Of a stretch of 38,975 nucleotides of DNA, positions 121 through 23,743 are shown one piece after another. Numbering within the stretch: position 1 is the stretch's first letter; every line of letters begins with the position of its first letter. The position numbers were made by a program, and so were the translations under genes. Below the pieces are notes generated by a model that did not search any database, was not told the origin of the DNA, and worked only from the letters and a program-made list of their open reading frames with translations. This stretch comes from a virus. The DNA lies in the IMG/VR virus record IMGVR_UViG_3300032213_002626, positions 1 to 38,975 of that record. One strand, 5' to 3'.

Positions 121-194
121 GCTTCCTTAGCTCAGCAGGCCAGAGCAACTGATTTGTAATCAGTAGGTCGTCAGTTCGATTCTGACAGGAAGCT
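121..194 (+). tRNA. tRNA-Thr (UGU)
   Basis: Cloverleaf with acceptor pairs GCTTCCT/AGGAAGC, anticodon stem ACTGA/TCAGT around loop TTTGTAA, and a standard T-loop TTCGATT. CCA is not encoded, as for all tRNAs of this array. Confidence 0.93.
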
Positions 195-208
195 CAAAAT
201 TTTTATCT

Positions 209-1360: not shown

Positions 1361-1368
1361 TATTTATA
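1361..1368 (+). promoter_or_regulatory. TATTTATA late-type box
   Basis: TATTTATA three bases before the ATG of the next gene. It is one of a family of identical boxes preceding late genes in this window. Confidence 0.5.
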
Positions 1369-1371
1369 ACT

Positions 1372-2088
1372 ATGAAAGGAATTTTAACACCAGAAGAAAA
1401 ACAATATTTAAGAAGAATATCCAATTACTTAGGTTCAATGGGAATGCAAGACGGCAACATTGAAATTGATATGGATAATGGATGGGAATTTAATTATGAG
1501 GATGTTAATTGGGATTTTGTTACCCATTTCACTAATAACTACAATGCAGATATTCCATCAGGATTAATTCCAATACTTCAAAAAATTATGAAGTATTGTG
1601 ATGAAAATAATTTAATTAAAGAACATGATGAAGATATAAATTATCAAAGACTTGAATATGACATTGATGTAGATTCTAAAAAAATTAGTTTCAATCATTG
1701 GTGGTCTTTTTATAGTAGAGGAGAAGGTAGTTCAGTTACTTGGGAGGATGAACAAGGAAAAGAGCAATTTGAACATTGGGAAGAAAGCGGAGTCTTTGAA
1801 GACCTTACAATTCCTGACGATGGAATATTAACCATACAATATAATGGTTCTGGTGATTCAGGATATCTTGAAAATAGTTTTAATGAAACAGGTGATGGCG
1901 TTCCAGCATCAATAGAAGATTGGTGTTACAGAGAACTTAGTGATAACTATAGTGGATGGGAAATTAATGAAGGTTCTGATGGACAATTTATATTCAACTT
2001 TCATGATATGACAATTGAATTGATTCATACAGAAAATATTGAGGATAATGCAAGCGATACTTATTACGAGGAAAGTTTTAATGATTAA
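1372..2088 (+). CDS. Unknown acidic late protein
   Basis: 238 residues, strongly acidic and rich in Asp, Asn, Trp and Tyr, with no motif I recognise. A central block with repeated Gly-Ser-Gly-Asp turns (NGSGDSGYLENSFNETGDG) precedes a segment WCYRELSDNYSGWEINEGSDG. It is probably soluble: no signal peptide or membrane segment is seen. It is preceded by a TATTTATA box and followed by a clear terminator, so it may form its own transcription unit. Confidence 0.75.
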   Translation: MKGILTPEEKQYLRRISNYLGSMGMQDGNIEIDMDNGWEFNYEDVNWDFVTHFTNNYNADIPSGLIPILQKIMKYCDENNLIKEHDEDINYQRLEYDIDVDSKKISFNHWWSFYSRGEGSSVTWEDEQGKEQFEHWEESGVFEDLTIPDDGILTIQYNGSGDSGYLENSFNETGDGVPASIEDWCYRELSDNYSGWEINEGSDGQFIFNFHDMTIELIHTENIEDNASDTYYEESFND

Positions 2089-2110
2089 TAAATAATTATT
2101 ATAATTAAAA

Positions 2111-2139
2111 CCCCGACTAAAAAAGTTCGGGGTTTTTTT
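2111..2139 (+). terminator. Rho-independent terminator
   Basis: CCCCGACT, A-rich loop, AGTTCGGGG with one bulge, followed by seven T. It ends the unit starting at 1372. Confidence 0.85.
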
Positions 2140-2162
2140 ATGACTTTATTAAAGATATTCAC

Positions 2163-2170
2163 TATCTTTG
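2163..2170 (+). promoter_or_regulatory. TATCTTTG -7 element before tRNA-Leu
   Basis: An exact Bacteroidota -7 element (TAnnTTTG) ten bases before the tRNA-Leu 5' end. No good TTTG -33 element is seen at the usual distance. Confidence 0.5.
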
Positions 2171-2179
2171 TAAAATAAT

Positions 2180-2261
2180 GTCAGAGTGTTGGAATGGTAT
2201 ACAAGACAGACTTAAAATCTGTTGAGCTTTGCTCGTGTGGGTTCGAGTCCCATCTCTGATA
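2180..2261 (+). tRNA. tRNA-Leu (UAA)
   Basis: Type II tRNA. Acceptor GTCAGAG/CTCTGAT with a G-U first pair, anticodon loop CTTAAAA in stem CAGA/TCTG, long variable arm (TGAGCTTTGCTCG), T-loop TTCGAGT, discriminator A. Confidence 0.92.
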
Positions 2262-2469
2262 CAATGAGTAAGAAGTACTCAGTAAGTTTGGTAACGTTCT
2301 TTCAAGATGTTATGGTTGTCGCCTACCACGGCCTTAAGAGGGGGTCTCGGACAATGGTCGTAACAAAACCACCGAGTATGTTTGACGTTTTAAGCGGTAA
2401 GACGCGTTGGGTTTTTCAAGAAGAAAAACTGTGAATATCTACTCACTGGGATTTCAGGTGGGGAAATTT
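2262..2469 (+). other. Structured G+C-richer spacer between tRNAs
   Basis: GTTA and GTTGTC (2309-2312, 2315-2320) can pair with TAAC and GACAAT (2361-2364, 2350-2355). CTCGG (2346-2350) can pair with CCGAG (2372-2376), giving an interleaved pseudoknot-type pattern. A 56-codon frame opens at 2264, but its GGG, CGG and AGG codons are unlike the real genes here. Confidence 0.35.
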
Positions 2470-2543
2470 GGTTCGGTAGCTCAGCTGGATAGAGCACAAA
2501 CCTTCTAAGTTTGGGGTCAAAGGTTCGAACCCTTTCCGAATCA
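2470..2543 (+). tRNA. tRNA-Arg (UCU)
   Basis: Acceptor GGTTCGG/CCGAATC, anticodon stem CAAAC/GTTTG with loop CTTCTAA, T-loop TTCGAAC. It reads the AGA codon that dominates arginine usage in this A+T-rich phage. Confidence 0.93.
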
Positions 2544-2643
2544 CAATTATCATCGTAACTCAGTGAGATACGGCGCAATTCATACACTTAAACAACGCGG
2601 GGGAGGCGTGTTCCTCGATGTGGCTGAAGCGATGATAATCTTT
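2544..2643 (+). other. Spacer closed by a perfect 10-bp helix
   Basis: ATTATCATCG (2546-2555) pairs perfectly with CGATGATAAT (2630-2639), enclosing 74 bases with a smaller ACGC/GCGT hairpin. The stretch lies exactly between tRNA-Arg and tRNA-Leu. No cloverleaf and no believable reading frame is seen. Confidence 0.45.
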
Positions 2644-2724
2644 ACCCCGATGGTGGAATGGTAGACACTCAAGTTTTAGGAACTTGTGACGTAAGTCGTG
2701 TCGGTTCGAGTCCGACTTGGGGTA
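2644..2724 (+). tRNA. tRNA-Leu (UAG)
   Basis: Type II tRNA. Acceptor ACCCCGA/TTGGGGT, anticodon loop TTTAGGA in stem CAAGT/ACTTG, variable arm GACGTAAGTCG, T-loop TTCGAGT. Confidence 0.92.
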
Positions 2725-2763
2725 CAATATTTTGAAATATTTATAAAAAAAAATACAATAGAT

Positions 2764-2793
2764 TTTGTGAACCAAAATATTTTTGTATCTTTG
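2764..2793 (+). promoter_or_regulatory. Bacteroidota-type promoter
   Basis: TTTG (2764-2767), 18-base spacer, TATCTTTG (2786-2793). No gene follows before the terminator at 2843, so it probably drives a short RNA. Confidence 0.65.
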
Positions 2794-2799
2794 TATAGT

Positions 2800-2886
2800 G
2801 ATTGAGGAGCACAATTTAGATACACAAGCTCAGTTACAAACTGGGTAACACGGGAACGATTCAGATACTAGTGTTACCCTTTTTTA
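2800..2886 (+). ncRNA. Candidate small RNA of about 85 nt
   Basis: A short segment framed by the promoter at 2764-2793 and a terminator hairpin. It has no start codon followed by a useful frame. It contains AGCTCAGTTAC, which resembles a tRNA D-arm, but no complete cloverleaf can be drawn. It is either a phage regulatory RNA or a decayed tRNA. The 5' end is estimated from the promoter. Confidence 0.5.
2843..2886 (+). terminator. Rho-independent terminator
   Basis: GGGTAACAC (2843-2851) pairs perfectly with GTGTTACCC (2871-2879), followed by a run of six T. It ends the small-RNA candidate and separates it from the convergent gene. Confidence 0.75.
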
Positions 2887-3306
2887 TTAGATATCGGAAT
2901 AAATAACCAATTGGTTTTCGCCAACTCTAAAAGGATTATAATTGGATTCTCTAAATACTGTTTTGATGATTAGTTTCCAATAAGTTCCTCCCATATGAAC
3001 AGGAGTTATTGCCATTGCTAATTCCCACTTTAAAGATTTTACAACAAAATCTTCTTCAGGTACAATTTCTCTTGTTACTATTTTTTCGGATATTTGTTGT
3101 TTTACCGTACTGATAATCTCTCTAATTTCCTCGTTTACAATCGGTCTTACGTTATATCCTTCAATATCATCTCTAGTATCTCTATCGAACGCATGAGTGG
3201 TTCTATTCACATCAAATACAAATAAAACTTCTAAAGACGAGTTAACTTGAGTTATCCTTTTCTCAACTAATAAATTTTCTTTAATAATTTGTCTTAATGT
3301 TTTCAT
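2887..3306 (-). CDS. Unknown late protein with capsid-targeting-like N-terminus
   Basis: 139 residues from the preferred start MKTLRQIIKENLLVEKR. The longer frame (to 3339) would run through the TATTTATA box five bases upstream. The N-terminus ends in I-K-E at residue 10, and L-V-E follows at residues 13-15; both fit the (I/L)-x-E sites cut by T4-type prohead proteases. The rest is a soluble alpha/beta sequence (LEVLFVFDVNRTTHAFDRDT, WELAMAITPVHMGGTYWKLI) that I do not recognise. Confidence 0.75.
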   Translation of the reverse strand: MKTLRQIIKENLLVEKRITQVNSSLEVLFVFDVNRTTHAFDRDTRDDIEGYNVRPIVNEEIREIISTVKQQISEKIVTREIVPEEDFVVKSLKWELAMAITPVHMGGTYWKLIIKTVFRESNYNPFRVGENQLVIYSDI

Positions 3307-3311
3307 CTTTT

Positions 3312-3319
3312 TATAAATA
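3312..3319 (-). promoter_or_regulatory. TATTTATA late-type box
   Basis: Reads TATTTATA on the minus strand, five bases before the MKTLRQ start. It supports the shorter start of that gene. Confidence 0.55.
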
Positions 3320-3331
3320 CTTGGAAAAATA

Positions 3332-3362
3332 TTTGACACTCAAAGATTTTTTCATATCTTTG
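3332..3362 (+). promoter_or_regulatory. Bacteroidota-type promoter
   Basis: TTTG (3332-3335), 19-base spacer, TATCTTTG (3355-3362): an ideal host-type promoter 18 bases before a 36-codon frame. Confidence 0.75.
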
Positions 3363-3380
3363 AACTATATATTAGAAACA

Positions 3381-3491
3381 ATGAGAACTACAATAAAACA
3401 TACGGTCTTTAGTCAACAACAAGAAACTTGTTGGTATGAGCGTATGCAGTCATGTAGTTCGGATATAATTTTGAATAATTTTTTAAACTAA
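3381..3491 (+). CDS. 36-residue small protein in a promoter-terminator cassette
   Basis: Short frame beginning MRTTIKHTVFSQQQETCWYE and ending SDIILNNFLN. It holds two cysteines and no membrane segment. It has its own promoter (3332-3362) and terminator (3515-3554), which is the main argument that it is expressed; the transcript could instead act as a regulatory RNA. The strong host-type promoter would suit early expression. Confidence 0.5.
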   Translation: MRTTIKHTVFSQQQETCWYERMQSCSSDIILNNFLN

Positions 3492-3514
3492 AAATAAACC
3501 AAATTTTTTATATA

Positions 3515-3554
3515 CCCTGAACTACAGAAATGAAGTTCAGGGTTTTTTGTTTTT
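3515..3554 (+). terminator. Rho-independent terminator
   Basis: CCCTGAACT (3515-3523) pairs perfectly with AGTTCAGGG (3534-3542), followed by TTTTTTGTTTTT. Confidence 0.9.
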
Positions 3555-3583
3555 GGCTCTTTGAAATATTGGTTGTATCTTTG
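3552..3583 (+). promoter_or_regulatory. Bacteroidota-type promoter for the second tRNA block
   Basis: TTTG (3552-3555), 20-base spacer, TATCTTTG (3576-3583). tRNA-Glu starts ten bases downstream. Confidence 0.7.
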
Positions 3584-3593
3584 TAAAACAAAT

Positions 3594-3667
3594 GTCGCGT
3601 TGGACAAATTGGTTAAGTCGTCACCCTTTCACGGTGAAGATTACGGGTTCGAGCCCCGTACGCGATA
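3594..3667 (+). tRNA. tRNA-Glu (UUC)
   Basis: Acceptor GTCGCGT/ACGCGAT with a G-U first pair, anticodon stem TCACC/GGTGA with loop CTTTCAC, T-loop TTCGAGC. Confidence 0.93.
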
Positions 3668-3809
3668 CAAGATGATGGTCTGATGTTATTGTCGTTGTCG
3701 ACTAACTCAATAACTATTAAACGGACAGCACCCTCTGCCTGGGCCCAAAGAAAACTCTGATGAAGCAGTTAAGATTGGAGCGAGATGGGTACTCCAACAT
3801 CATCCAAAC
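3668..3809 (+). other. Structured spacer with H-type pseudoknot potential
   Basis: An outer helix GATGATG (3671-3677) with CATCATC (3798-3804) encloses interleaved helices: GTTATTG (3685-3691) with CAATAAC (3708-3714), and GTTGTC (3694-3699) with GACAGC (3724-3729). A 3' hairpin TTGGAG/CTCCAA (3775-3780 with 3792-3797) follows. No reading frame of interest is present. It is a candidate structured RNA excised together with the tRNAs. Confidence 0.45.
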
Positions 3810-3881
3810 AGTTCCTTAGCTCAGTGGAAGAGTCCTTGCCTTACATGCAAGTAGTCGTAGGTTCGAATCCTACAGGAACTA
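3810..3881 (+). tRNA. tRNA-Val (UAC)
   Basis: Perfect acceptor AGTTCCT/AGGAACT, anticodon stem CTTGC/GCAAG with loop CTTACAT, T-loop TTCGAAT. Confidence 0.94.
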
Positions 3882-3891
3882 CAAATCTCAA

Positions 3892-3963
3892 ATGTGAGCA
3901 GTAAATAGTCTTAAATTTGAGCAGTGACAAAGTCGGAAGTAAAAACGTGACAAAATCGGAAGT
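3892..3963 (+). repeat. Three degenerate tandem repeats before a small gene
   Basis: GTGACAAAGTCGGAAGT (3924-3940) and GTGACAAAATCGGAAGT (3947-3963) have a 23-base period and differ by one base. A weaker upstream copy carries TGAGCAGTAAATAGTC, paralleled by TGAGCAGTGACAAAGTC. The last unit ends one base before the ATG at 3965, so this could be an operator or a translational control site. Confidence 0.6.
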
Positions 3964-3964
3964 T

Positions 3965-4180
3965 ATGAAATATATTTTTAGAGGACATACTGTGTTTGAG
4001 TACAAACCAGATGATAAGTTTGATAAAGTGGTTCAAGGTAAGATTCATGATGCAATTCCTGCATTTGATTTTTGTCATATGATTCCTGAGGACTATAGAT
4101 TGTTAGGAGAGTTTTTTAATACAGTTTATAAACATACTCAGGGAGAAGATGTTGAGTTGAAAGACGTGGAGGTGTATTAA
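3965..4180 (+). CDS. Small unknown protein
   Basis: 71 residues from the ATG at 3965 (MKYIFRGHTVFEYKPDDKFDK). The frame stays open upstream to a TTG at 3917, but that part is made of direct repeats and reads as a regulatory region. It is acidic and soluble, with no motif recognised. It ends one base before tRNA-Phe, so gene and tRNA are likely cotranscribed. Confidence 0.65.
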   Translation: MKYIFRGHTVFEYKPDDKFDKVVQGKIHDAIPAFDFCHMIPEDYRLLGEFFNTVYKHTQGEDVELKDVEVY

Positions 4181-4181
4181 T

Positions 4182-4254
4182 GGTGACGTAGCTCAGTTGG
4201 TAGAGCACTTGCCTGAAGAGCAAGGTGTCGTCGGTTCGATTCCGACCGTTACCA
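4182..4254 (+). tRNA. tRNA-Phe (GAA)
   Basis: Acceptor GGTGACG/CGTTACC, anticodon stem CTTGC/GCAAG with loop CTGAAGA, T-loop TTCGATT. Confidence 0.94.
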
Positions 4255-4329
4255 CGGAGTCCCGAATTAACGGGAAACCCCCACTCCCATATGGCAGCCA
4301 GTCCGTTAACCTGGTGAAGTGGGGTATTT
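4255..4329 (+). other. Spacer with a clear H-type pseudoknot
   Basis: Helix 1 is TTAACGG (4267-4273) with CCGTTAA (4303-4309). Helix 2 is CCCCACT (4279-4285) with AGTGGGG (4318-4324). The strands alternate 1-2-1-2 with loops of 5, 17 and 8 bases, a sterically reasonable pseudoknot of two perfect 7-bp helices. The element fills the spacer between tRNA-Phe and tRNA-Lys. Confidence 0.55.
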
Positions 4330-4403
4330 GACTTCGTAGCTCAGTTGGCTAGAGCACTTCACTTTTAATGAAGGAGTCCCGAGTTCGAATCTCGGCGGGG
4401 TCA
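4330..4403 (+). tRNA. tRNA-Lys (UUU)
   Basis: Acceptor GACTTCG/CGGGGTC with G-U pairs, anticodon stem CTTCA/TGAAG with loop CTTTTAA, T-loop TTCGAAT. Confidence 0.94.
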
Positions 4404-4417
4404 CAAAAAAAAATGAT

Positions 4418-5041
4418 ATGATAAACAATATAGACATAATAAAACCATTATTGAACTTTGAGGAGAAGGGGGATTTCTATATGCTCTATGTTTTCAAACG
4501 TAAGAAAGACCAACCTGAAGGAGAAAGAGATAACCATCAGTCGGTTAGAACTATTAAAACATATTGTATTGAATCAGTTGACCATTTGGAAAGGAGATAT
4601 GATGAGGTGATACAATTATGTGAGATGTTCAAGGCGAGAGCTTATATTCATGTTCAGAAACAAAACCACAGAGATGTGTCTTTGGATATGTTGGCAAGTT
4701 TGGCTGAGAGAATTAAGAATGGAGTTCAGAACCAAAAGGGGTTATTTGACTCGGTTGTGGGACAGATAAAGACTCAAGAGAAAAGATGGATTATTGATAT
4801 TGATAATGTATCTATTGATGGATTTAACCATTCTCCAAGTCAAATTAAAATGAGAGAATATATAAACGAGTTACAGAAAGAGGCGGGAAAAGAACAAGGA
4901 ATGACTTTTATTAAAACAAGAAGTGGGTTCCATATTATAACTCAACCTTTTAATGTGATGAAATTTAAGGAAAGATATCCCGAGGTTGATATCCAAAAAA
5001 AGAACCCGACATTATTGTATTACCCAAATTCATTAAATTAA
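4418..5041 (+). CDS. Possible AEP primase-like protein
   Basis: 207 residues. A central RRYDEVIQLCEMFKARAYIHVQ block is followed by WIIDIDNVSIDG (D-I-D, about residues 124-135) and by TRSGFHIITQPFN (about 167-179). The D-x-D strand and the later S-G-x-H strand recall the catalytic motifs of archaeo-eukaryotic-type primases, and such minimal proteins occur in large phages, but the rest of the fold is not evident. Alternative: an unrelated nucleic-acid enzyme. It lies 14 bases after tRNA-Lys and is followed by two small genes in the same orientation. Confidence 0.4.
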   Translation: MINNIDIIKPLLNFEEKGDFYMLYVFKRKKDQPEGERDNHQSVRTIKTYCIESVDHLERRYDEVIQLCEMFKARAYIHVQKQNHRDVSLDMLASLAERIKNGVQNQKGLFDSVVGQIKTQEKRWIIDIDNVSIDGFNHSPSQIKMREYINELQKEAGKEQGMTFIKTRSGFHIITQPFNVMKFKERYPEVDIQKKNPTLLYYPNSLN

Positions 5042-5046
5042 AAAAT

Positions 5047-5265
5047 ATGGAAAAAAGAACATTTAACAGTAGTGATTTATCTTGGATTTCTGTATCTTTG
5101 AAAGGAAAATCAGATGTAACAATATACGAAGGAGATTTAAGTGATTGTGGTAATGAGATTGGACATACTGTCGGTAAGAGATATAACAATATGACCGAAG
5201 AAGAAATTGAAGATTTCATTACAGGAGTAAGGCATGGGATTTCATTAACAAACGGAACACATTAA
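5047..5265 (+). CDS. Small unknown protein
   Basis: 72 residues (MEKRTFNSSDLSWISVSLKG at the start), acidic and soluble. The segment KRYNNMTEEEIEDFITGVRHGI looks like a helix pair at the C-terminus. It is five bases downstream of the primase-like gene, in the same operon. Confidence 0.65.
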   Translation: MEKRTFNSSDLSWISVSLKGKSDVTIYEGDLSDCGNEIGHTVGKRYNNMTEEEIEDFITGVRHGISLTNGTH

Positions 5266-5277
5266 AAATAAATTAAA

Positions 5278-5493
5278 ATGAAAGTAGTTGTAAAAAAAGA
5301 TAGCGCGGATATTTTTCCTCATTTATATGAAGGAACCGTTTTACAAGAAGTTAGTGAACAAGGAGAAAACTATGTTGGACTTTTTATTTCTGTATTTGGT
5401 TCATATTATGTTGAGATACCTAAAAAAAGATGTAAAAAATATAAAATTAAAGAAACGTTAAATGGTCGATTGGCCGAGTGGCTTAGGCGGTAG
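5278..5493 (+). CDS. Small unknown protein whose 3' end lies inside a tRNA gene
   Basis: 71 residues beginning MKVVVKKDSADIFPHLYEGT. It is probably a small beta-barrel (VLQEVSEQGENYVGLFISVF, SYYVEIPKKRCKKYK) with a basic tail. The last ten codons (NGRLAEWLRR) and the TAG stop are read from the 5' half of tRNA-Cys (tRNA start 5464), a 30-base overlap. A tRNA processed from the same transcript would destroy the message end, so the two products may compete. Confidence 0.6.
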   Translation: MKVVVKKDSADIFPHLYEGTVLQEVSEQGENYVGLFISVFGSYYVEIPKKRCKKYKIKETLNGRLAEWLRR

Positions 5494-5535
5494 TCTGCAA
5501 AACTATTTACACAGGTTCGAATCCTGTATCGACCT
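5464..5535 (+). tRNA. tRNA-Cys (GCA)
   Basis: Perfect acceptor GGTCGAT/ATCGACC, anticodon loop CTGCAAA in stem GTAGT/ACTAT, T-loop TTCGAAT, discriminator U as usual for Cys. Confidence 0.93.
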
Positions 5536-5549
5536 CAAAAATATATATT

Positions 5550-5795
5550 ATGGCAAAAGGAATATTAGAATTTGATTTAAATGACCAAGATGAAGTAATT
5601 GCTCATAAAAGAGCGGTTAAGTCTTTTGATATGGCTATGGCATTATGGGAAATTACCCATAATACTAAAAAGTCTTTAGAGTGGTCTTTAGAAGGTAAAG
5701 ATATTGATAAGTACGAAACTTTAGAGTTAGTGTTTGGAAAGATATACGAAATATTAGATGAACATAACATAAATACAGAAGAATTTATTAATTAA
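5550..5795 (+). CDS. Conserved small phage protein
   Basis: 81 residues. The opening MAKGILEFDLNDQDE, the central MALWEITHNTKKSLEW and the end VFGKIYEILDEHNINTEEF fit a widespread phage family that starts xATLEFNLPxD and has an ALWEID helix. No function is known to me. It sits 14 bases after tRNA-Cys and directly before tRNA-Trp, within the tRNA transcript. Confidence 0.75.
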   Translation: MAKGILEFDLNDQDEVIAHKRAVKSFDMAMALWEITHNTKKSLEWSLEGKDIDKYETLELVFGKIYEILDEHNINTEEFIN

Positions 5796-5801
5796 ATAAA
5801 C

Positions 5802-5874
5802 ACGTGCGTAGCTCAGATGGTAGAGCAGTAGTCTCCAAAACTATGTGTCAGAGGTTCGACCCCTTTCGTGCGTG
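5802..5874 (+). tRNA. tRNA-Trp (CCA)
   Basis: Acceptor ACGTGCG/CGTGCGT with two wobble pairs, anticodon loop CTCCAAA in stem GTAGT/ACTAT, discriminator G as expected for Trp. Confidence 0.92.
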
Positions 5875-6016
5875 CTAAAGGTTGATTGGGGAATGGTTAT
5901 GTCTATAGTTCGAGAGTGAATGCTGACTGACATAATCGGAGTTTGGAGGTATTCACCTAAGTAATGCCAATCATAAAAGGAGTCGTCCACGGAACCATCT
6001 TCTCCTTTCCTTATTT
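5875..6016 (+). other. Structured spacer with H-type pseudoknot potential
   Basis: An outer helix TGATTGG (5883-5889) with CCAATCA (5967-5973) encloses TTATGTC (5897-5903) with GACATAA (5929-5935), interleaved with GTGAAT (5916-5921) and ATTCAC (5951-5956). The pattern (outer clamp plus pseudoknot) parallels the spacer at 3668-3809. No coding frame is credible. Confidence 0.45.
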
Positions 6017-6098
6017 GGGAGTATCGCATAGCGGCAATTGCAGAAGACTGTAAATCTTCCCTCTTTCGAGTTCGTTGGTTCGAGTCCAGCTACTCCCA
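6017..6098 (+). tRNA. tRNA-Tyr (GUA)
   Basis: Type II tRNA. Perfect acceptor GGGAGTA/TACTCCC, anticodon stem GAAGA/TCTTC with loop CTGTAAA, long variable arm, T-loop TTCGAGT. Confidence 0.93.
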
Positions 6099-6105
6099 CA
6101 ATTTT

Positions 6106-6179
6106 GGACTTGTAGCTCATTCGGTTAGAGCGGCACACTCATAATGTGAAGGTAATAGGTTCGATTCCTATCTGGTCCA
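6106..6179 (+). tRNA. tRNA with CAU anticodon (Ile2 or Met)
   Basis: Acceptor GGACTTG/CTGGTCC, anticodon loop CTCATAA. Features of the anticodon arm resemble tRNA-Ile2 whose C34 is changed to lysidine, but an elongator Met cannot be excluded by eye. Confidence 0.85.
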
Positions 6180-6316
6180 CACGGTTTGGTTAGTCACCAA
6201 ATAGTATATCCAATACGATGGGAAATGGTTTGACAACCATATGGAAACGTACATTGACGTATAGGTAGAACGTCAGGGAATGTCATCCCGACCTCGTGAG
6301 GACGAAACGACAATCT
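6180..6316 (+). other. Spacer with several small hairpins
   Basis: Hairpins TTTGGT/ACCAAA (6185-6190, 6196-6201), ATGGTT/AACCAT (6225-6230, 6235-6240) and TGACGT/ACGTCA (6255-6260, 6270-6275) fill the spacer between the CAU tRNA and tRNA-Gln. No gene is seen. Confidence 0.35.
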
Positions 6317-6387
6317 TGTCCGATGGTGTAACGGTAACACTACAGTTTTTGGTACTGTCATTTCTGGTTCGAATCCAGGTCGGATAA
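6317..6387 (+). tRNA. tRNA-Gln (UUG)
   Basis: Acceptor TGTCCGA/TCGGATA, anticodon stem ACAGT/ACTGT with loop TTTTGGT, T-loop TTCGAAT. Confidence 0.93.
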
Positions 6388-6391
6388 CAAA

Positions 6392-6469
6392 ATGGAAAAA
6401 AATATGTGGTTATTATTATTATGGGTTATTTTGATGATTGTTGTAAAATGGGACAACGACCGTGACTAA
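6392..6469 (+). CDS. 25-residue membrane microprotein
   Basis: A frame of 25 codons between tRNA-Gln and tRNA-Arg: MEKNMWLLLLWVILMIVVKW, then DNDRD. One hydrophobic helix (residues 5-18) with an acidic tail suggests a single-pass membrane peptide. It fills the spacer almost exactly, starting five bases after one tRNA and ending two bases before the next. Expression is unproven. Confidence 0.5.
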   Translation: MEKNMWLLLLWVILMIVVKWDNDRD

Positions 6470-6470
6470 G

Positions 6471-6542
6471 GGTTTTATGGTGTAACGGATAGCACACAAA
6501 ACTACGGATTTTGGAGTTTAGGTTCGAATCCTAATAGAACCT
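6471..6542 (+). tRNA. tRNA-Arg (ACG)
   Basis: Acceptor GGTTTTA/TAGAACC, anticodon stem CAAAA/TTTTG with loop CTACGGA, T-loop TTCGAAT. It would need A34-to-inosine editing by the host enzyme to read CGU/CGC/CGA. Confidence 0.9.
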
Positions 6543-6548
6543 CTAAAC

Positions 6549-6622
6549 TGCGAGGTAGCTCATTCGGTGAGAGCGCAGGATTCATAACCCTGAGGTGGGC
6601 AGTTCAAATCTGCCTCTCGCAA
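6549..6622 (+). tRNA. tRNA with CAU anticodon (Met-type)
   Basis: Acceptor TGCGAGG/TCTCGCA with a weak U1-A72 pair, anticodon loop TTCATAA flanked by AGGA and CCCT. The weak first pair and G/C-rich anticodon stem partly recall initiator tRNA, but the three-G-C hallmark is incomplete; it may be elongator Met. Confidence 0.85.
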
Positions 6623-6627
6623 CATAT

Positions 6628-6699
6628 GGTGTTTGAAGCATTAAGGTGATGCACTAGTTTGTGGAGCTAGGAAAGACGGGTCGGTACCGTCCTTACACC
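6628..6699 (+). tRNA. Atypical tRNA-His (GUG)
   Basis: G-1 (6628) faces C73, the His identity pair. Acceptor GTGTTTG/CTTACAC has two U-U mismatches, the anticodon loop is TTGTGGA in stem CTAGT/GCTAG, and the T-stem is GACGG/CCGTC. Position 8 is A rather than U and the T-loop is GTCGGTA rather than TTCRANY, so the gene is degenerate or unusually modified. Confidence 0.7.
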
Positions 6700-6734
6700 C
6701 AAATGTTTTTTGTATATGTTGACTATTTATTGTT

Positions 6735-7184
6735 ATGGAAAAAGTAACATTAACAAAAGAACAACTATTCAAAGTGATGCATTTGAGTGAGCAGGAAGAT
6801 AAGTCTGAAACTAAAGGTAACTCAGGGTTTAAAAATATGGTATCAACATTATTGCATTCGCAAACTCAAGTTCATATCTTTCATTTGCAAACCAAATCAT
6901 ATTCAGAACATATCGCATTACAAGGATACTATGAAGGAATTGACGGATTAGTCGATGGTATTATTGAAGGTTATCAAGGTAAATACGACCTTGTTAAAAA
7001 TTATGATTCAGTAAAAACTGAGGACTATAAAAGTTCTGAACAAGTAATTAATTATTTTAAATCATTAGACTCCATGATTGAAAAAGCAAGAAAAGGAGTT
7101 AAAGAATCGTTTATTCAAAACCAAATCGATACGGTTCAAGAATTAATTTATTCAACAATATACAAATTAAGATTTTTAAAGTAG
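6735..7184 (+). CDS. Ferritin-like helical bundle protein (DUF5856-like)
   Basis: 149 residues. The conserved block MVSTLLHSQTQVHIFHLQTK, then SYSEHIALQGYYEGIDGLVD and GIIEGYQGKYDLV (about residues 35-90) matches a phage family with a His/Glu pattern like a ferritin or Dps four-helix bundle. A metal or oxidoreductase role is possible but unproven. The gene ends in a strong terminator that closes this tRNA transcription block. Confidence 0.65.
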   Translation: MEKVTLTKEQLFKVMHLSEQEDKSETKGNSGFKNMVSTLLHSQTQVHIFHLQTKSYSEHIALQGYYEGIDGLVDGIIEGYQGKYDLVKNYDSVKTEDYKSSEQVINYFKSLDSMIEKARKGVKESFIQNQIDTVQELIYSTIYKLRFLK

Positions 7185-7207
7185 TATATTTTTTAAATTT
7201 AATATTG

Positions 7208-7243
7208 AATCCCTCTGATTAAAAGTCAGAGGGATTTTTTTTG
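7208..7243 (+). terminator. Rho-independent terminator
   Basis: ATCCCTCTGA (7209-7218) pairs perfectly with TCAGAGGGAT (7226-7235), followed by a run of T. Confidence 0.92.
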
Positions 7244-7257
7244 TAACATAAAATTAG

Positions 7258-7265
7258 TATCTTTG
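7258..7265 (+). promoter_or_regulatory. TATCTTTG -7 element before tRNA-Ile
   Basis: An exact -7 element 12 bases before tRNA-Ile and directly after a terminator. The -33 region is T-rich without a clearly spaced TTTG. Confidence 0.55.
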
Positions 7266-7277
7266 TACTAACAACAA

Positions 7278-7351
7278 TGGAATATAGCTCAGTTGGTTAG
7301 AGCGTCATCCTGATACGGTGAATGTCGATGGTTCGAGTCCATCTATTCCAA
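7278..7351 (+). tRNA. tRNA-Ile (GAU)
   Basis: Perfect acceptor TGGAATA/TATTCCA, anticodon stem TCATC/GGTGA with loop CTGATAC, T-loop TTCGAGT. Confidence 0.93.
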
Positions 7352-7353
7352 CA

Positions 7354-7689
7354 ATGGAAACTGAAATTAAAAAGAAAACTGGCAATAGAGCCAAGTTTAA
7401 GAAAATTGTAAAAGAGTATAAAGATGCCACTACTTCAGAAATTTGGGAAGGAGTTAGGGATAATTTTACTTTTGGGTTTATTGGTGCGACTATTGTTGTG
7501 TTTATTGCAACAAGAGCGGATATTGCGGTATTATTAGGTTATCTAACATATTACTTTTTTATGGGTAAGATAGTTAACCGTCCCAAATATGTAACAGATT
7601 TGGGACGAATGATTGTGTTTCCAATACCATCAGCCTTAGGGGCATTTGCGGGATATAAATTGTCTTATTATCTTTTACAATTATTGTAA
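7354..7689 (+). CDS. Small membrane protein
   Basis: 111 residues from METEIKKKTGNRAKFKK; the frame extends back into tRNA-Ile, so the ATG two bases after the tRNA is chosen. A basic N-terminal segment precedes hydrophobic stretches near residues 37-72 (GFIGATIVVFIATRADIAVL, GYLTYYFFM) and 86-108 (IVFPIPSALGAFAGYKLSYY), consistent with three membrane helices. The function is not recognised. It lies between tRNA-Ile and tRNA-Ser in one transcript. Confidence 0.7.
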   Translation: METEIKKKTGNRAKFKKIVKEYKDATTSEIWEGVRDNFTFGFIGATIVVFIATRADIAVLLGYLTYYFFMGKIVNRPKYVTDLGRMIVFPIPSALGAFAGYKLSYYLLQLL

Positions 7690-7695
7690 AATATT

Positions 7696-7780
7696 GGAAA
7701 GTTGGCAGAGTGGTAATGCAGCGGTTTGCTAAACCGTACATCAATAAAATGATGCGAGAGTTCGAGTCTCTCACTTTCCG
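7696..7780 (+). tRNA. tRNA-Ser (GCU)
   Basis: Type II tRNA. Perfect acceptor GGAAAGT/ACTTTCC, anticodon stem GCGGT/ACCGT with loop TTGCTAA, variable arm, T-loop TTCGAGT, discriminator G as expected for Ser. Confidence 0.94.
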
Positions 7781-7826
7781 CAGAAAAAAATATTTGAAAA
7801 GTTGACAAAATGGAATAGTTCTCATA

Positions 7827-13786: not shown

Positions 13787-14986
13787 TTAATTTCCTTTTG
13801 ATGGAAATCTTGTCCATCCGTTTACCCAAATAGGTGTGGTTAAATCAGATACCACAGTAACTATTTCTACGTTATTTTTTGATAACGATAATGTTTTTAA
13901 TTGTTCGTTTGTTAAAATTGTTGTTGCTTTACTGATAAAATTCAATGTAGGGTTAAATGTTCCTACTGAATTGTTTTCAAATATTGAAACTCCATCTTTT
14001 ACAAATTGTGCGGTTTCATTACTTTCTAAACTTAATCCACCTTTCATCCATCCCCATACAATACTGTTCTTCATAGTAAATTGAGTTGCTCTTCTAAATC
14101 TTAAACCTAAATTATGGTTTGCTAATGCTGTAGATACGTTTGGACCAACTAAAATCATATTGAATAGTTTTGGGTGAGTATATGGTTGAGCTAAAGACCC
14201 TGTTCCATCGTTATCGCACTCAACTCCATTTCCTGCGTCACCACTATCAACAAACTGAGGGTCTCTTTTTGCAACTCCGTTAGTAATTGTCCCTGTATAA
14301 CCAAAGTCAAAGTCAAAATCATCGTCAGCTGTTGCGTATGCATAAAGATTTTTACCATTTACAGTTCCTCCAAAAAACTCAAACGCATCATCATTAGCAT
14401 AAATTGTTTGAATATTTTCAAGTATAGTCCCACTACCAACACCTCCTAATGTCAATGCATTAATTTCTGAATTAGGCATTGCTGCGATTCCTGCGTATTC
14501 TATTCTTACATAACGAAGAACACCACTATTATCTAAATCATTTGTTCCACCGTAAGGTCTACCAATGCCTCCTTCAATAGTTGGTTCTGATGTTCTATTA
14601 GTTTTCGCTCTACCTAAAATTACAATACCACCCCAGTCACCAGGAGTTCTTTCACCTACAGGTTTACCTGACGTAAAGATAATTGGTTTTGATGATGTTC
14701 CTTCAGCTAAGATTTGAGCGCCTCTTTCGATACATAAAGCACCTTTTTCACTGATATCAGAAATGATTGTTGTGCCTGGTTGGATAATAAGTTTTGCTCC
14801 ATCGGTCACATACACATACCCTTTTAATGTCCAAACTTTGTCCGAAGTTAAAGTTGTAGTTGTATTAATGTTTCCTGAAAGAGTGGTTGATGTTGGTATG
14901 TTAATTGGTCCGTCTTCGCCACCTCCTAAATTTTTTTCGCATCCAAATAATGATAATGCTAAAATAAGTCCTAATAATTTTTTCAT
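13787..14986 (-). CDS. Surface lipoprotein with beta-helix-like repeats, partner of the TonB receptor
   Basis: 399 residues. MKKLLGLILALSLFGCEKNL carries a lipobox (L-F-G-C, Cys16). The body has right-handed beta-helix-type strands and turns: LKGYVYVTDGAKLIIQPGTT, GALCIERGAQILAEGTSSKP, WGGIVILGRA, VLRYVRIEYAGIA, and a D-D-x-F-E-F-F-G-G-T-V segment. Lipoproteins of this type follow TonB-dependent receptors in Bacteroidota. Its ATG overlaps the receptor stop by four bases (ATGA), so the two are coupled. It is probably surface-exposed and could capture a ligand or mask the phage receptor. Confidence 0.8.
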   Translation of the reverse strand: MKKLLGLILALSLFGCEKNLGGGEDGPINIPTSTTLSGNINTTTTLTSDKVWTLKGYVYVTDGAKLIIQPGTTIISDISEKGALCIERGAQILAEGTSSKPIIFTSGKPVGERTPGDWGGIVILGRAKTNRTSEPTIEGGIGRPYGGTNDLDNSGVLRYVRIEYAGIAAMPNSEINALTLGGVGSGTILENIQTIYANDDAFEFFGGTVNGKNLYAYATADDDFDFDFGYTGTITNGVAKRDPQFVDSGDAGNGVECDNDGTGSLAQPYTHPKLFNMILVGPNVSTALANHNLGLRFRRATQFTMKNSIVWGWMKGGLSLESNETAQFVKDGVSIFENNSVGTFNPTLNFISKATTILTNEQLKTLSLSKNNVEIVTVVSDLTTPIWVNGWTRFPSKGN

Positions 14987-17460
14987 AAATTTAAATTTAA
15001 TGTTAATGAAATTGTTTGCTCGTTATTTGTTTTTATTAGATTTCTGTTTTGTACTTTTTGGTAAAAGATGGATGACTGAGCAAAGACATCACCTATTGCC
15101 AATTTTAATTCTCCTTTCGGAAGTTTATGTAAAAAAGTTACATCTAACACATCTCTACTATTTTCGAATATGTCAGGATAACCTTGAAATCCCACTGCGG
15201 ATATTCTATCTCCAACTCTGTTATATGTTATATTGAGTGTTTCATTCTTTTTATGAATATTCACACCACTATTTAACACGTAGTTTGATTGTCCTTGTAA
15301 TTGTCTTTTCATACCGTTCACATTTACCTCAGAGTTCATAAGAGAAACGTTTGTGTAAATGTCAAACCAATTGGTTATTTTTTTACGAATCTCCATTTCA
15401 ATACCATATAAAATTGCAGAATTTGGGTTAGTGTATGTTAACAGTAAGTTTGATGGTACTGAACCATCGGCAACAATTTGTTCTATTGGTTTAATAAAGT
15501 TTTTCCCAAATAAGGAAACCGATATGTTTTCACCTGACTCTGGATACCATTCGTATTTTAAATCCAAATTATATATGTCAGTTTTTTCTAATTTTGAATT
15601 ACCTAAAATTTGTGCGTTTCTAACAAAATCGTAATACGCAAAATTTGCAACTTCTCTAAATTCAGGTCTTGATAATGTCTTACTTATTGAAAATCTATAT
15701 TTTGTTTTATCCTCATTATATGAAAGATTAAGTGACGGCAAGAAATCCAAATACTGTCTGTTTACATTCACTTTTTGACCACTAAAATCTGCGGTTTGAA
15801 CTTCAAAAATATTATATTCGCCCCTAATACCTGTGTTAATTTTCCATTTACCAAATTCATTTTCGTACATTGAATATAAAGACCCTAAATCAAAATCGGC
15901 GGTATATCTATCGGTATTGTTTGTAATCTCATCTAACATATCTGTTGATTGGTAACGAAATATTCTGGCATTAAACCCTCTAAATCGTTTTAAATAACCA
16001 CCACCAACTTTTATATTACCAATCTCTTTATTGACGTTACCGTTAAAAGAGTTTTCGTCCATTACACTCCAAAAACGATATGTGTCTCTCCAAGCAGTTT
16101 GATAGGGTTCGTTAACTCCTAATGATTTTGTAATCGGATTTATTCTATAATCAGGTTGTTCCCTGAACATATAATTGTATCCAACATTGAAATTAAATGT
16201 TTCTATTTTACCGTCTAATTGAGAATTAACAACAATATTATTAATATTATTTGATGCGGTACTACGAACATTTTGTACGTTATCAAAGTTGTCACCGTTA
16301 CGAGTTAAATATGAATTTTCTGATTGGTAATTAACCAAGGTTTTCCAACTATATCGGTTTTTCCCCAAATATGTTAAATTAAGTAATCCATTGGTGGATA
16401 CTCTTTTTGTGAATAATGTATCTCTGTATGAGTAAGCTAATTCTGTTGATGACTGATAATCTTTTCTGTCAATATAATTTAGAGTATATGTATTTCGTAC
16501 AGTAGAACTAAATAAAGAATTAAATTTACCTTTAGTATACCCAAATGAAAGACCCCCATTTAAATTTGGAATTGATTGAAATGAAGATTCTGATGGTGTA
16601 TTAATTAATTTAGTAAACGCTCTTTTATCACCATTACTACTAATTCGGTATCGATATGTTGAAGGGAAAGAGGAAGGGAATTTAGTAGGTTGAACTAACT
16701 TAAATTTTTCAAAAGTTGATACTAAACCCCAACCACTCCCCAATGAGATATTAAAAAAATTATCAGATACTTCTTTTGTTGTTACTTGAATTAATCCTCC
16801 ACTCCAATCTCCAGGTAAATTCGCAGATGACGATTTTGATACAATAATATTGTCAATTAAAGATGTTGGAATTATGTCAAAAGAAAATGCTCTTCTGTCT
16901 GGTTCAGTTGATGGTAAGGGGGTTTTATTTAAAAATGCCAAATTATACCTATCAGATAAACCTCTAACCAAAACAAATCTATCATTTTGAATTGTTACAC
17001 CACTAACTCTTTTGAGAGCATCTCCTAAATTTCTATCAGGAGTTTTTTTAATAAATTCGATTGAAATACCATCAGATACTACATTACTGTTTCGTATTGA
17101 CCTAACAATTGCAATTTCAGTTATTTTTTGTGCTGTCGACCTTACAATGACTTCAGATAATTGAGTATCACTCTCTTCAAGTATAATGTCTAAAGTTAAA
17201 TCCGATGTTATGTTAATTTCTTTTAAAAAATTAGAATAACCCATGTACGATGCGGTTATCTTATATATCCCAGGTTTAACAGTTACTTTATATTCGGATT
17301 TTTCGTTTGAAATAGAGGAGTATGATGTCCCGTCTATGTGTTTGAATATTATGTGGGAAAAATATATGTTTTCGGTTTTAGATTTTGTAAGACCACTTAC
17401 ATTTATTTGTCCAACGGCTAAGATTGGGATTAGTAGTAAAAATAGAAAAAATGATTTCAT
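14983..17460 (-). CDS. TonB-dependent outer-membrane receptor
   Basis: 825 residues. A signal peptide (MKSFFLFLLLIPILAVGQ) is followed by a carboxypeptidase-D-regulatory-like domain (about 19-95; YKVTVKPGIYKITASYMGYS), a plug domain (about 105-235; V-L-V-R-G-L-S-D-R-Y-N, PGDWSGGLIQVTTKE) and a 22-strand-type barrel. The full length and intact plug suggest a working receptor that imports a nutrient with TonB energy. The ligand is unknown. It is very unusual in a lytic phage region. Possible roles are feeding the infected cell, exchanging surface receptors, or a recently acquired host operon. The leader (17461-17556) has a TATTTATG box and a hairpin AGTTATT/AATAACT. Confidence 0.9.
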   Translation of the reverse strand: MKSFFLFLLLIPILAVGQINVSGLTKSKTENIYFSHIIFKHIDGTSYSSISNEKSEYKVTVKPGIYKITASYMGYSNFLKEINITSDLTLDIILEESDTQLSEVIVRSTAQKITEIAIVRSIRNSNVVSDGISIEFIKKTPDRNLGDALKRVSGVTIQNDRFVLVRGLSDRYNLAFLNKTPLPSTEPDRRAFSFDIIPTSLIDNIIVSKSSSANLPGDWSGGLIQVTTKEVSDNFFNISLGSGWGLVSTFEKFKLVQPTKFPSSFPSTYRYRISSNGDKRAFTKLINTPSESSFQSIPNLNGGLSFGYTKGKFNSLFSSTVRNTYTLNYIDRKDYQSSTELAYSYRDTLFTKRVSTNGLLNLTYLGKNRYSWKTLVNYQSENSYLTRNGDNFDNVQNVRSTASNNINNIVVNSQLDGKIETFNFNVGYNYMFREQPDYRINPITKSLGVNEPYQTAWRDTYRFWSVMDENSFNGNVNKEIGNIKVGGGYLKRFRGFNARIFRYQSTDMLDEITNNTDRYTADFDLGSLYSMYENEFGKWKINTGIRGEYNIFEVQTADFSGQKVNVNRQYLDFLPSLNLSYNEDKTKYRFSISKTLSRPEFREVANFAYYDFVRNAQILGNSKLEKTDIYNLDLKYEWYPESGENISVSLFGKNFIKPIEQIVADGSVPSNLLLTYTNPNSAILYGIEMEIRKKITNWFDIYTNVSLMNSEVNVNGMKRQLQGQSNYVLNSGVNIHKKNETLNITYNRVGDRISAVGFQGYPDIFENSRDVLDVTFLHKLPKGELKLAIGDVFAQSSIFYQKVQNRNLIKTNNEQTISLTLNLNL

Positions 17461-17952: not shown

Positions 17953-17990
17953 AATAAAAATAAAAATAAGGTTCACATCTCTGTGAACCT
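17951..17990 (-). terminator. Rho-independent terminator of the tmRNA
   Basis: AGGTTCACA (loop GAGA) TGTGAACCT at 17969-17990 on the minus strand, then a T-rich tract, starting one base after the tmRNA CCA end. Confidence 0.9.
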
Positions 17991-17991
17991 A

Positions 17992-18405
17992 TGGTGGAGG
18001 TGGCGGGAATCGAACCCGCGTCTTACAATATTAACATAAACAGACTACACGTTTATTCAGTTAGTTCTCAACTGACAAATAAATGGTTCCTATTTTGACA
18101 TCGTAACCAATAACTGTGTCGGGTTCACTTGTGTTGGAGTAGACCCCTGAACGAGACTCCTAATACATCTTCTGGTGGTATTACACCTTGAGTACTTCTG
18201 TTCCTAGGTTATATGTACATCGACCCGAACGTTGTTCTGTACTAATTAAGCACCAACAACAACAGCTTCTTTAGTTAAACCTAAAGCAGCCATTTTAGCA
18301 AAAGTATTGCCGTTTGAATTTTTTCACCGTAGATTTAAGTCATAGATGAATTCTGACTACGTGCCTGCTTACCCTAAGTACTGGAATCAATACCTGGACA
18401 CCCCC
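17992..18405 (-). ncRNA. ssrA: Transfer-messenger RNA (tmRNA)
   Basis: A 414-nt phage tmRNA. The ends pair as GGGGGTG with CACCTCC, including a G3-U70-type wobble, the alanine identity element; the T-arm is GCGGG-TTCGATT-CCCGC; ACCA is encoded. The tag frame ends in TAA at 18246-18248 and reads, from the likely resume codon (GGC near 18309), GNTFAKMAALG followed by LTKEAVVVGA. It therefore ends in V-V-V-G-A and not in the usual A-L-A-A. It has its own promoter (18426-18456) and terminator. It should rescue stalled ribosomes and mark the released peptides. Confidence 0.93.
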
Positions 18406-21176: not shown

Positions 21177-23189
21177 TTATCGTCCTTTTTTCTGAACTTT
21201 AACCTCGTCGTTCTCAACCTTGATAGTGTAGGTTTTACCTTCAACCATCTTACCTGTTAGAACTTCTTCAGATAACAAATCCTCAACTTTGTCTTGGATA
21301 GCTCTCTTGAGTGGTCTCGCTCCGTACATCTCGTCAAATCCAATCTTAGCCAAATAATCAACTAAAGTGTCATCAAAGTTTAAAGTGTACTTCATGTCCT
21401 TAAGACGTTTACCTAATTTCGACAATTCAATCACAGTAATTTTCTTGATGTCCTCAGGAGTTAATGAGTTGAACACAATTGTATCATCGATACGATTGAT
21501 GAATTCAGGAGAAAAGAATTTCTTCATTTCTTTCATTAACACTTCTTTTTTTGCTTCCTCATTAGCGTAAGGACTATTTGAGAAACCAATACCTGTACCA
21601 AAGTCTTGTAACTTCTTCACACCTAAGTTTGAAGTTAAGATGATTAAAGTATTCTTGAAGTTAATCTTTCTACCTAAACTATCTGTAACGTGACCGTCAT
21701 CCAAGATTTGAAGTAAGATAGTAAACACATCTTTGTGAGCTTTTTCCACCTCATCAAACAAGATAACTGAATATGGTTTGTTCTTAACTTTTTCAGTCAA
21801 TAAACCACCTTCTTCGTATCCAACATAACCTGGAGGGGCTCCAACCAATTTAGAGATACTGTGTTTCTCTTGGTACTCAGACATATCCACACGGATAAGT
21901 GAATCTTCAGAACCAAACATCTCTTTTGCCAATTGTTTGGCTAAGTGAGTTTTACCAACACCTGTTGAGCCTAAGAACACAAATGAACCAATCGGACGGT
22001 TTGGGTCCTTAATACCTAAACGGTTTCTCTTGATAGATTTTGCAATCTTAACGACCGCAGCGTCCTGACCGATTACTTTACCAATCAATTCTTTATCCAA
22101 GTTCAACAACGCCTTAGTGTCATCAACACTCATCTTACTTACAGGAATCTTAACCATGTTTGAAACAACTTCATAAACATTATCTAATGAGATGATTTGT
22201 TTGTTTTCTAACATAGAATCTTCAAACTTACGTTTTTCAACTTCTAATTTGTCTAATACTTTTTTCTCCTTATCTCTTAACTGAGCAGCTTGTTCGTAGT
22301 TTTGTTTTTTAACTACGTCAATCTTTTGTTGTCTAATTTCAGCAGCGGCTTTCTTCAAAAGTTCAATAGATTCAGGAACTTTAAGTTCGGTTTGCATACG
22401 AGCACCAACCTCATCCAAGATATCAAATGCCTTATCAGGGAACTCACGGTCTGTGATGTAACGGTCAGCCAATTTAACACAAGCTTCAATTACTTCATCA
22501 CTATAAGTCACCTTGTGATAAGACTCATACTTATCACGTATATTTTTAAGGATTTGGATTGTCTCATCAACGGTAGACGCATCCACAATTACTTTTTGGA
22601 ATCTACGTTCCAATGCTCCGTCTTTCTCGATGTTCTTACGAAACTCATCAAGAGTTGTTGCTCCAATGATTTGAATCTCACCACGAGACAACGCTGGTTT
22701 GAAGATATTAGAACCATCCATTGAACCTGAAGAGTTACCAGAACCAACCAAGGTATGTACCTCATCAATAAACACAATGATTTGTGGGTTGGCAGTAAGT
22801 TCTTCAATAATAACTTTCATTCTTTCTTCAAATTGTCCACGGTATTTTGTACCTGCGACAACTGAAGTTAAGTCAAGATTGACTAATCTTTTGTCCACTA
22901 AATTACGGGGACATTCACCACTTACAATCTTCATAGCTAAACCTTCAACAATTGCGGTTTTACCACAACCAGGTTCACCAATGATAATTGGATTGTTTTT
23001 CTTTCTACGAGATAAAATCTGAGCGATTCTTAAAATCTCTTTGTCACGACCAATAACAGGGTCTAACTTACCTTCTTCTGCAAGTTTATTTAAGTCTCGA
23101 CTAAAGTTGTCTAAAACAGGAGTACTGCTATCAGACTGCTTTTGTTTTTTACTCATCATTTTGTCGTCGTCGTCCATTAAGTCATTCAT
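21177..23189 (-). CDS. ClpC-like AAA+ unfoldase without N-domain
   Basis: 670 residues. NBD1 has Walker A GEPGCGKT (71-78) and Walker B I-V-F-I-D-E-V-H-T-L (about 138-147). The short middle domain carries a UVR-like helix pair (KKQNYEQAAQLRDKEKKVLD, about 294-313), the ClpC mark. NBD2 has G-S-T-G-V-G-K-T (407-414) and I-L-F-D-E-V-E-K-A-H. G-I-G-F at 533-536 sits where ClpC proteins carry the ClpP-docking loop, so it may deliver substrates to host ClpP. The usual N-terminal repeat domain is replaced by an Asp/Lys/Ser-rich stretch. Known relatives unfold proteins in the cytoplasm. Confidence 0.92.
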   Translation of the reverse strand: MNDLMDDDDKMMSKKQKQSDSSTPVLDNFSRDLNKLAEEGKLDPVIGRDKEILRIAQILSRRKKNNPIIIGEPGCGKTAIVEGLAMKIVSGECPRNLVDKRLVNLDLTSVVAGTKYRGQFEERMKVIIEELTANPQIIVFIDEVHTLVGSGNSSGSMDGSNIFKPALSRGEIQIIGATTLDEFRKNIEKDGALERRFQKVIVDASTVDETIQILKNIRDKYESYHKVTYSDEVIEACVKLADRYITDREFPDKAFDILDEVGARMQTELKVPESIELLKKAAAEIRQQKIDVVKKQNYEQAAQLRDKEKKVLDKLEVEKRKFEDSMLENKQIISLDNVYEVVSNMVKIPVSKMSVDDTKALLNLDKELIGKVIGQDAAVVKIAKSIKRNRLGIKDPNRPIGSFVFLGSTGVGKTHLAKQLAKEMFGSEDSLIRVDMSEYQEKHSISKLVGAPPGYVGYEEGGLLTEKVKNKPYSVILFDEVEKAHKDVFTILLQILDDGHVTDSLGRKINFKNTLIILTSNLGVKKLQDFGTGIGFSNSPYANEEAKKEVLMKEMKKFFSPEFINRIDDTIVFNSLTPEDIKKITVIELSKLGKRLKDMKYTLNFDDTLVDYLAKIGFDEMYGARPLKRAIQDKVEDLLSEEVLTGKMVEGKTYTIKVENDEVKVQKKGR

Positions 23190-23362: not shown

Positions 23363-23743
23363 ATGTTTGGAAACAGAAGAAACTACAATGACATCTTTAG
23401 AGCATTCGATGAAATGTTCTCTCATTTCGATTTACCACAAGGGGAATGGAAATCACAAAGTAGAGTATCTGATGATGGTACGATAAAAGTAACAACTTAT
23501 TATAGAGGAGAAGACTCATCTAAAGAAACAGGAGGATTAGAATCTTTAAAATCTCAACTTGAAAAAGCTATTGAGAATGAAGATTTTGAATCTGCGGTTA
23601 AACTTAGAGACCAAATCAAAAACTTTGAAAAAAATCAAAAATCTATTGAGAAACTTGAATCGGAATTAAAGAAGTCAATTGAAAACCAAGAGTTTGAAAA
23701 ATCAATTCAACTTAGAGACCAAATCAAAAACTTGAAAAAGTAA
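23363..23743 (+). CDS. Two-UVR-motif protein, possible ClpC partner
   Basis: 126 residues. After an N-terminal part (NYNDIFRAFDEMFSHFDLPQ, then a beta segment TIKVTTYYRGED) come two tandem UVR motifs: KSQLEKAIENEDFESAVKLR and SELKKSIENQEFEKSIQLRD, each with the A/S-x-x-L-R-D-Q-I ending. UVR motifs occur in UvrB/UvrC, ClpC and McsA, where they mediate pairing with another UVR protein. The gene is divergent from the ClpC-like gene, so an adaptor or regulator of that unfoldase is the natural guess. McsA's zinc fingers are absent. Confidence 0.7.
   Translation: MFGNRRNYNDIFRAFDEMFSHFDLPQGEWKSQSRVSDDGTIKVTTYYRGEDSSKETGGLESLKSQLEKAIENEDFESAVKLRDQIKNFEKNQKSIEKLESELKKSIENQEFEKSIQLRDQIKNLKK

Follow-up and report, generated by a model that had tools for sequence, protein, structure and literature searches.

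A viral DNA stretch of 38,975 nucleotides (the window, positions 1 to 38,975 of IMG/VR record IMGVR_UViG_3300032213_002626) was found to carry a complete tmRNA gene whose tag belongs to a family conserved across dozens of related large phages. Comparison of the related sequences indicates that selection acts on the tag peptide itself, over the whole of its 21–22 residues. The gene lies downstream of one for a ClpC-type unfoldase that has no N-terminal domain, and the sequence facts on the tmRNA, the tag and the ClpC linkage are solid. A conserved tag always encoded beside an unfoldase suggests that these phages may possess a private tag-and-destroy system.

The tmRNA gene and its surroundings

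The tmRNA gene (ssrA) occupies positions 17992–18405 on the minus strand and specifies a 414 nt RNA of the one-piece standard form with an encoded CCA. The original prediction had placed a complete phage tmRNA at these coordinates and named a covariance model as the check; the coordinates hold, the strand is added here, and the Rfam model RF00023 was matched over its full length (model positions 1–374) with a score of 91.1 bits (gathering score 47, E 2.5e-34). In the acceptor stem, read directly, the 5' strand GGGGGUG (18405–18399, minus strand) pairs with CACCUCC (18002–17996) and includes G3-U70, and the T-arm and CCA were recognised from the Rfam alignment and direct reading. An intact 7-bp acceptor with G3-U70 was present in 141 of 150 distinct aligned relatives, among which the stem covaries with G3-U70 kept (GGGGAUG/CAUCUCC, GGGGGUA/UACCUCC, GGGCUCG/CGGGUCC and others). 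The window RNA aligns with the model from end to end, yet many pairs of the variable domain, where PK1 to PK4 would lie, are non-standard or inserted. Among the relatives the PK2–PK4 regions differ in length, and the middle of the tmRNA is variable and partly mosaic. By its intact and covarying acceptor the RNA looks functional as a tmRNA.

Four related tmRNAs escaped Rfam because they contain a group I intron or have a changed T-loop. Group I introns (RF00028) interrupt the T-loop of two tmRNAs of the window's clade, L066 (12871–13087, 72.5 bits) and L075 (15130–15346, 75.1 bits), so that RF00023 overlooks these two; in bacterial tmRNAs, introns of the T-loop have been described before (PMC11915505). 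Five standard-form tmRNAs (L045, L052, L053, L079 and L110) have, as read by eye, GGCRGNR in the T-loop instead of TTCGANT and AG in the D-loop instead of GG, which suggests an exchanged elbow pair. The GGCRGNR pattern mostly matches two-piece (permuted) tmRNAs (38 of 38 recognised by ARAGORN).

As predicted from the window sequence, the tmRNA gene has a promoter and terminator of its own. No sigma-70 promoter was found on the correct strand. Instead, a -7 element TATCTTTG of the form TAnnTTTG is located at 18433–18426 (minus strand), with TTTG 19 bases further upstream at 18456–18453, and the resulting TTTG-N19-TAnnTTTG arrangement (18456–18426) is the one known from Bacteroidota promoters. 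TAnnTTTG was present upstream of the tmRNA in 59 of 71 relatives, mostly 25–28 bases from its 5' end, as compared with a mean of 5.8 and a maximum of 15 in shuffled sequences. Transcription would end at an intrinsic terminator at 17990–17969 (minus strand), composed of the hairpin AGGTTCACAGAGATGTGAACCT followed by TATTTTTATT.

Adjoining the tmRNA is a gene for a TonB-dependent outer-membrane receptor with a plug and a carboxypeptidase-regulatory-like domain (14983–17460, minus strand), of which a scan of 84,980 bacterial and archaeal genomes confirmed no relative; next to it, a 399-aa protein without a Pfam match is encoded at 13787–14986 (minus strand). The host of the phage probably belongs to the Bacteroidota, judging by the form of its promoter and by the SusC/TonB-type receptor. 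An array of 17 tRNA genes is located at 121–7781 (plus strand), and, taken with the tmRNA, points to a phage supplying much of its own translation RNA.

The tag peptide and its conservation

The tag frame, GNTFAKMAALGLTKEAVVVGA, begins at position 95 of the tmRNA and comprises 21 codons (18311–18249, minus strand), followed by the TAA stop at 18248–18246, which was read directly. Counting the alanine of the charged tmRNA, the added peptide has 22 residues. A tag of about 21 residues with an end other than ALAA had been predicted, and this was borne out, since the window tag ends in VGA and not in the Ala-Ala of canonical ssrA tags (ALAA, AVAA). Another frame with a normal ALAA end, the possibility raised against that prediction, was rejected because 86 distinct homologous tags all keep to this frame; both alternative frames carry stops in 39 of 39 sequences. 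Among 44 relatives the tag stop codon was TAA in 37, TAG in five and TGA in two.

By homology searches 73 distinct related tmRNAs were collected, which encode 58 distinct tags. Scans of IMG/VR with the tag pattern only, performed to avoid selection for ClpC, gave 183 new loci, every one of them inside a tmRNA of the same family as that of the window. Eleven loci dropped by the first filter proved to be complete tags as well, some with GF instead of GL. The 86 distinct tags with GL have 21 residues (72 tags) or 22 residues (14 tags) in the same frame. GL at positions 11–12 is invariant in them, partly since the filter demanded it, and the GF variants were the sole exceptions seen. Lys-6 is present in 83 of the 86.

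Most bacterial tags end in Ala-Ala. Alanine is the last residue in 81 of the 86 phage tags, and the endings are VA in 48, AA in 14 and GA in nine; the penultimate residue is Val in 49, Ala in 15, Gly in nine and Thr in seven. The changed tag end of the original prediction thus stands as a difference from ALAA; VGA is only one of its forms, the relatives having mostly xVA, and the difference is a property of the whole clade. As a rough yardstick only, AA ended 44 of 45 tags read by ARAGORN from unrelated phage or bacterial contigs, these outgroup tags being mostly two-piece alphaproteobacterial forms not matched for phylogeny.

Substitutions were counted in pairs of tags with 2–16 differences. 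Amino-acid changes amounted to 1230 observed against 1933 expected, i.e. 0.64 of the neutral expectation, and were below expectation in 273 of 285 pairs, which share sequences and so are not independent. Differences at codon positions 1, 2 and 3 numbered 930, 664 and 1408, and changes in tag length were of whole codons. The conserved frame, the reduced number of amino-acid changes, the third-position bias and the stops in the other frames together argue for selection on the tag peptide.

One strict pattern for the tag core matched none of 84,980 bacterial and archaeal genomes, which is weak evidence of absence, and DNA and protein searches of 50,697 named phage records gave nothing convincing. 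No convincing Pfam or PDB match was obtained for the peptide, and none of the window proteins ends in a mimic of the tag by the motifs tried.

ARAGORN did not report the window tmRNA, and it shortened the tag to its last eight residues (e.g. AEEATVVA) in L041, L044, L065 and L124. Existing annotations may therefore misreport phage tags, and since the standard annotator misses or shortens such tags, other private ones may hide in known phage genomes.

The neighbouring ClpC and the possible fate of tagged chains

The original prediction had pointed to a ClpC-like protein 2.8 kb away, and the distance from the tmRNA to the ClpC gene was indeed 2,775 bases. This gene (21177–23189, minus strand) encodes a ClpC-type two-ring AAA+ unfoldase of 670 aa (Pfam AAA, AAA_lid_9, AAA_2 and ClpB_D2-small), which has a UVR motif and an IGF loop for docking to ClpP. 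In the PDB it was closest to S. aureus ClpC (6em8, E 7.7e-220), the match starting at residue 147 of that chain, and Pfam gave no Clp_N match in the window protein. The N-domain is absent in all 54 ClpC relatives, with only 17–47 residues ahead of the D1 ring motif, while the pore loops are kept in 53–54 of the 54 and an IGF/VGF-type loop is present in 54, with the expected context in 49.

In 44 of 44 records the tmRNA lies on the same strand as ClpC, 1.2–5.3 kb downstream of it (median 2.8 kb). All 51 records of the first set contain ClpC, most of them by construction. The tmRNA was detected in 44 by Rfam and in four by sequence, that is, wherever 3 kb or more follow ClpC on the contig; in the remaining three the contig stops within 3 kb of it. 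Among the long contigs found by the tag scan, 44 of 45 carry ClpC. The 45th (G079) was rejected as a ClpC-less exception, for its ClpC gene is cut by the contig start and the C-terminal 35 residues are present. Both genes, tmRNA and ClpC, seem to belong to the core set of one clade with conserved gene order, and finding them together is therefore no independent sign that they are functionally linked. Tag distances correlate with ClpC distances once the remainder of the tmRNA is taken into account (partial r 0.33, permutation p 0.0015, 33 loci), a weak signal that shared ancestry can also produce.

Divergent from ClpC, a small protein with two UVR motifs is encoded at 23363–23743 on the plus strand (Pfam UVR, 8.6e-17), and UVR matches were counted by eye beside ClpC in roughly 29 of 51 records; the protein is possibly a ClpC partner or adaptor.

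ClpP, located outside the window, was seen in 42 of 96 related records (24 of the 51 in the first set and 18 of the 45 found by tag), usually 12–30 kb downstream. Six of the seven contigs above 290 kb have it, and it is missing from some large contigs, e.g. G083 of 322 kb. In the 12 ClpP sequences read, the Ser-His-Asp triad is visible as GMAASMG (some GLAASMG or GMCASMG), MLHQ (MTHM in L190) and the expected Asp. An SmpB gene was found in only five of the 96 records, in two of these directly beside the tmRNA, and in none of the other 91. Since tmRNA and ClpC are paired in every long-enough contig and many relatives also have ClpP, the putative role of the neighbouring ClpC as tag reader gains weight.

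We regard the chances as evenly balanced that the tag is a lineage-specific degron, read by the N-domain-less phage ClpC, from which the chain is passed to phage or host ClpP. A jumbo-type phage, probably of Bacteroidota, would then bring its own tmRNA, which host AlaRS would charge through G3-U70 and which SmpB, that of the host in most of these phages, would load on stalled ribosomes, expected to be plentiful during the destruction of host mRNA and tRNA. The nascent chain would gain Ala-GNTFAKMAALGLTKEAVVVGA and the ribosome would be freed. The tag would serve as a degron tuned to phage ClpC, which, as the adaptor domain is absent, would probably read it directly at the pore, and the chain would be cut by ClpP, phage-encoded in many relatives and the host's in others. 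The fuller proposal of an orthogonal trans-translation in this clade of large phages, in which the private 21–22 residue degron is recognised by phage ClpC with phage or host ClpP and inefficiently by host ClpXP, leaving the rescued chains to the virus and not to the host, is put forward tentatively, and we would sooner doubt it than rely on it. Protection of tagged chains from host ClpXP, also suggested in the original prediction, gained no support here. The final Ala-Ala matters most for ClpXP (PMC7652416), and the altered penultimate residue may weaken ClpXP recognition, the terminal Ala and its hydrophobic neighbours being kept. In the open-access literature no measurement for a tag ending in VGA or VVA came up.

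A serious competitor, though on the unlikely side, is an ordinary degron that host ClpXP, ClpAP or others degrade like the host's tags, so that only the amount of tmRNA matters, in rescuing ribosomes after mRNA cleavage. The frequent terminal alanine, following a small residue, would suit such a role; host-like roles have been described for phage tmRNAs (PMC9004378), and in phage Wildcat the tmRNA is the top-expressed lytic gene (PMC7474061). This reading leaves unexplained, however, both the conservation over 21–22 residues with its central GL and the predominant avoidance of -AA.

That the tag is instead stabilising or a decoy, freeing ribosomes while the product escapes host ClpXP and thereby preserving truncated proteins of the phage or overloading the host's quality control, seems improbable. 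The penultimate residue, part of the Ala-Ala most important for ClpXP (PMC7652416), is changed in most tags as this would require, but the end stays hydrophobic and alanine-terminated rather than charged, and phages avoiding proteolysis would be unlikely to keep ClpC, often with ClpP, as core genes.

Conservation is strongest in the centre of the tag (Lys-6, GL at 11–12) and not just at the C terminus, which would accord with a non-degradative peptide, e.g. a helix-turn-helix docking peptide (xxFxKhxxhGLTREExVVxA) sending chains to a partner, its end residues being incidental; with no Pfam or PDB match for the peptide and no partner identified, we hold this to be very improbable. Conservation of the RNA alone (resume-codon context or helix 5), with the peptide irrelevant, is scarcely credible given the third-position excess, the deficit of amino-acid changes and the whole-codon length changes, even though much of the tag region is predicted to be paired in the fold of the window tmRNA alone.

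Relation to known tmRNAs and proteases

Catalogues of phage tmRNAs have not made clear what a phage gains from having such a gene, and a lineage-specific degron read by phage ClpC would bear on this. The present comparisons indicate that the tag itself, and not the RNA alone, is under selection across a clade, with its likely reader encoded next door; if true, tag and reader would form a natural pair of degron and protease, orthogonal to ClpXP.

The window RNA shares with the bacterial one-piece tmRNA (ssrA-SmpB, RF00023) the tRNA-like domain with G3-U70, the full Rfam model, the resume codon, the in-frame tag and the stop. It differs in that the tags of the phage clade are 21–22 residues long, conserved throughout and end mostly in VA, GA or TA instead of AA, and in that most of the related phage records, as counted above, are without an SmpB gene. 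The most frequent bacterial tag length is 10 (PMC11915505). Like AANDENYALAA, the ssrA tag of E. coli that ClpXP and SspB recognise, the phage tag is C-terminal, hydrophobic and alanine-terminated; unlike it, the phage tag is twice as long, contains no AANDENY-like stretch and has mostly Val and not Ala in the penultimate position. The phage unfoldase has the two AAA+ rings, UVR motif, pore loops and ClpP-docking loop of the ClpC/ClpP protease (S. aureus ClpC, 6em8; B. subtilis ClpC, 3j3t), whereas the N-terminal adaptor-binding domain of the latter is lacking.

A phage-encoded tmRNA is in itself known: 402 of 18,146 phage genomes contain one (PMC9004378), and examples include mycobacteriophages such as Bxz1 and Wildcat, Bacillus phage G (PMC4131195), methylophage Melnitz and huge phages, some of which have tmRNA together with SmpB (PMC7162821). 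From these the present clade is set apart by a tag core not found in the 50,697 named phage records and by the linkage of the gene to phage ClpC, often with ClpP. Within the open-access literature no report was found of a clade-wide conserved non-AA tag coupled to phage ClpC and ClpP, which to that extent is new. The window terminase is less than 30% identical to those of the best named phages among the matches listed.

Last, a 484-kb phage (LR756508.1) has a ClpC about 50% identical. Its tmRNA (L317, 92434–92880) has a frame that apparently specifies a long tag with the end AAV. A second, tmRNA-like RNA of 112 bases (L320, 414804–414915) leaves no space for a tag, as does the DS6A form.
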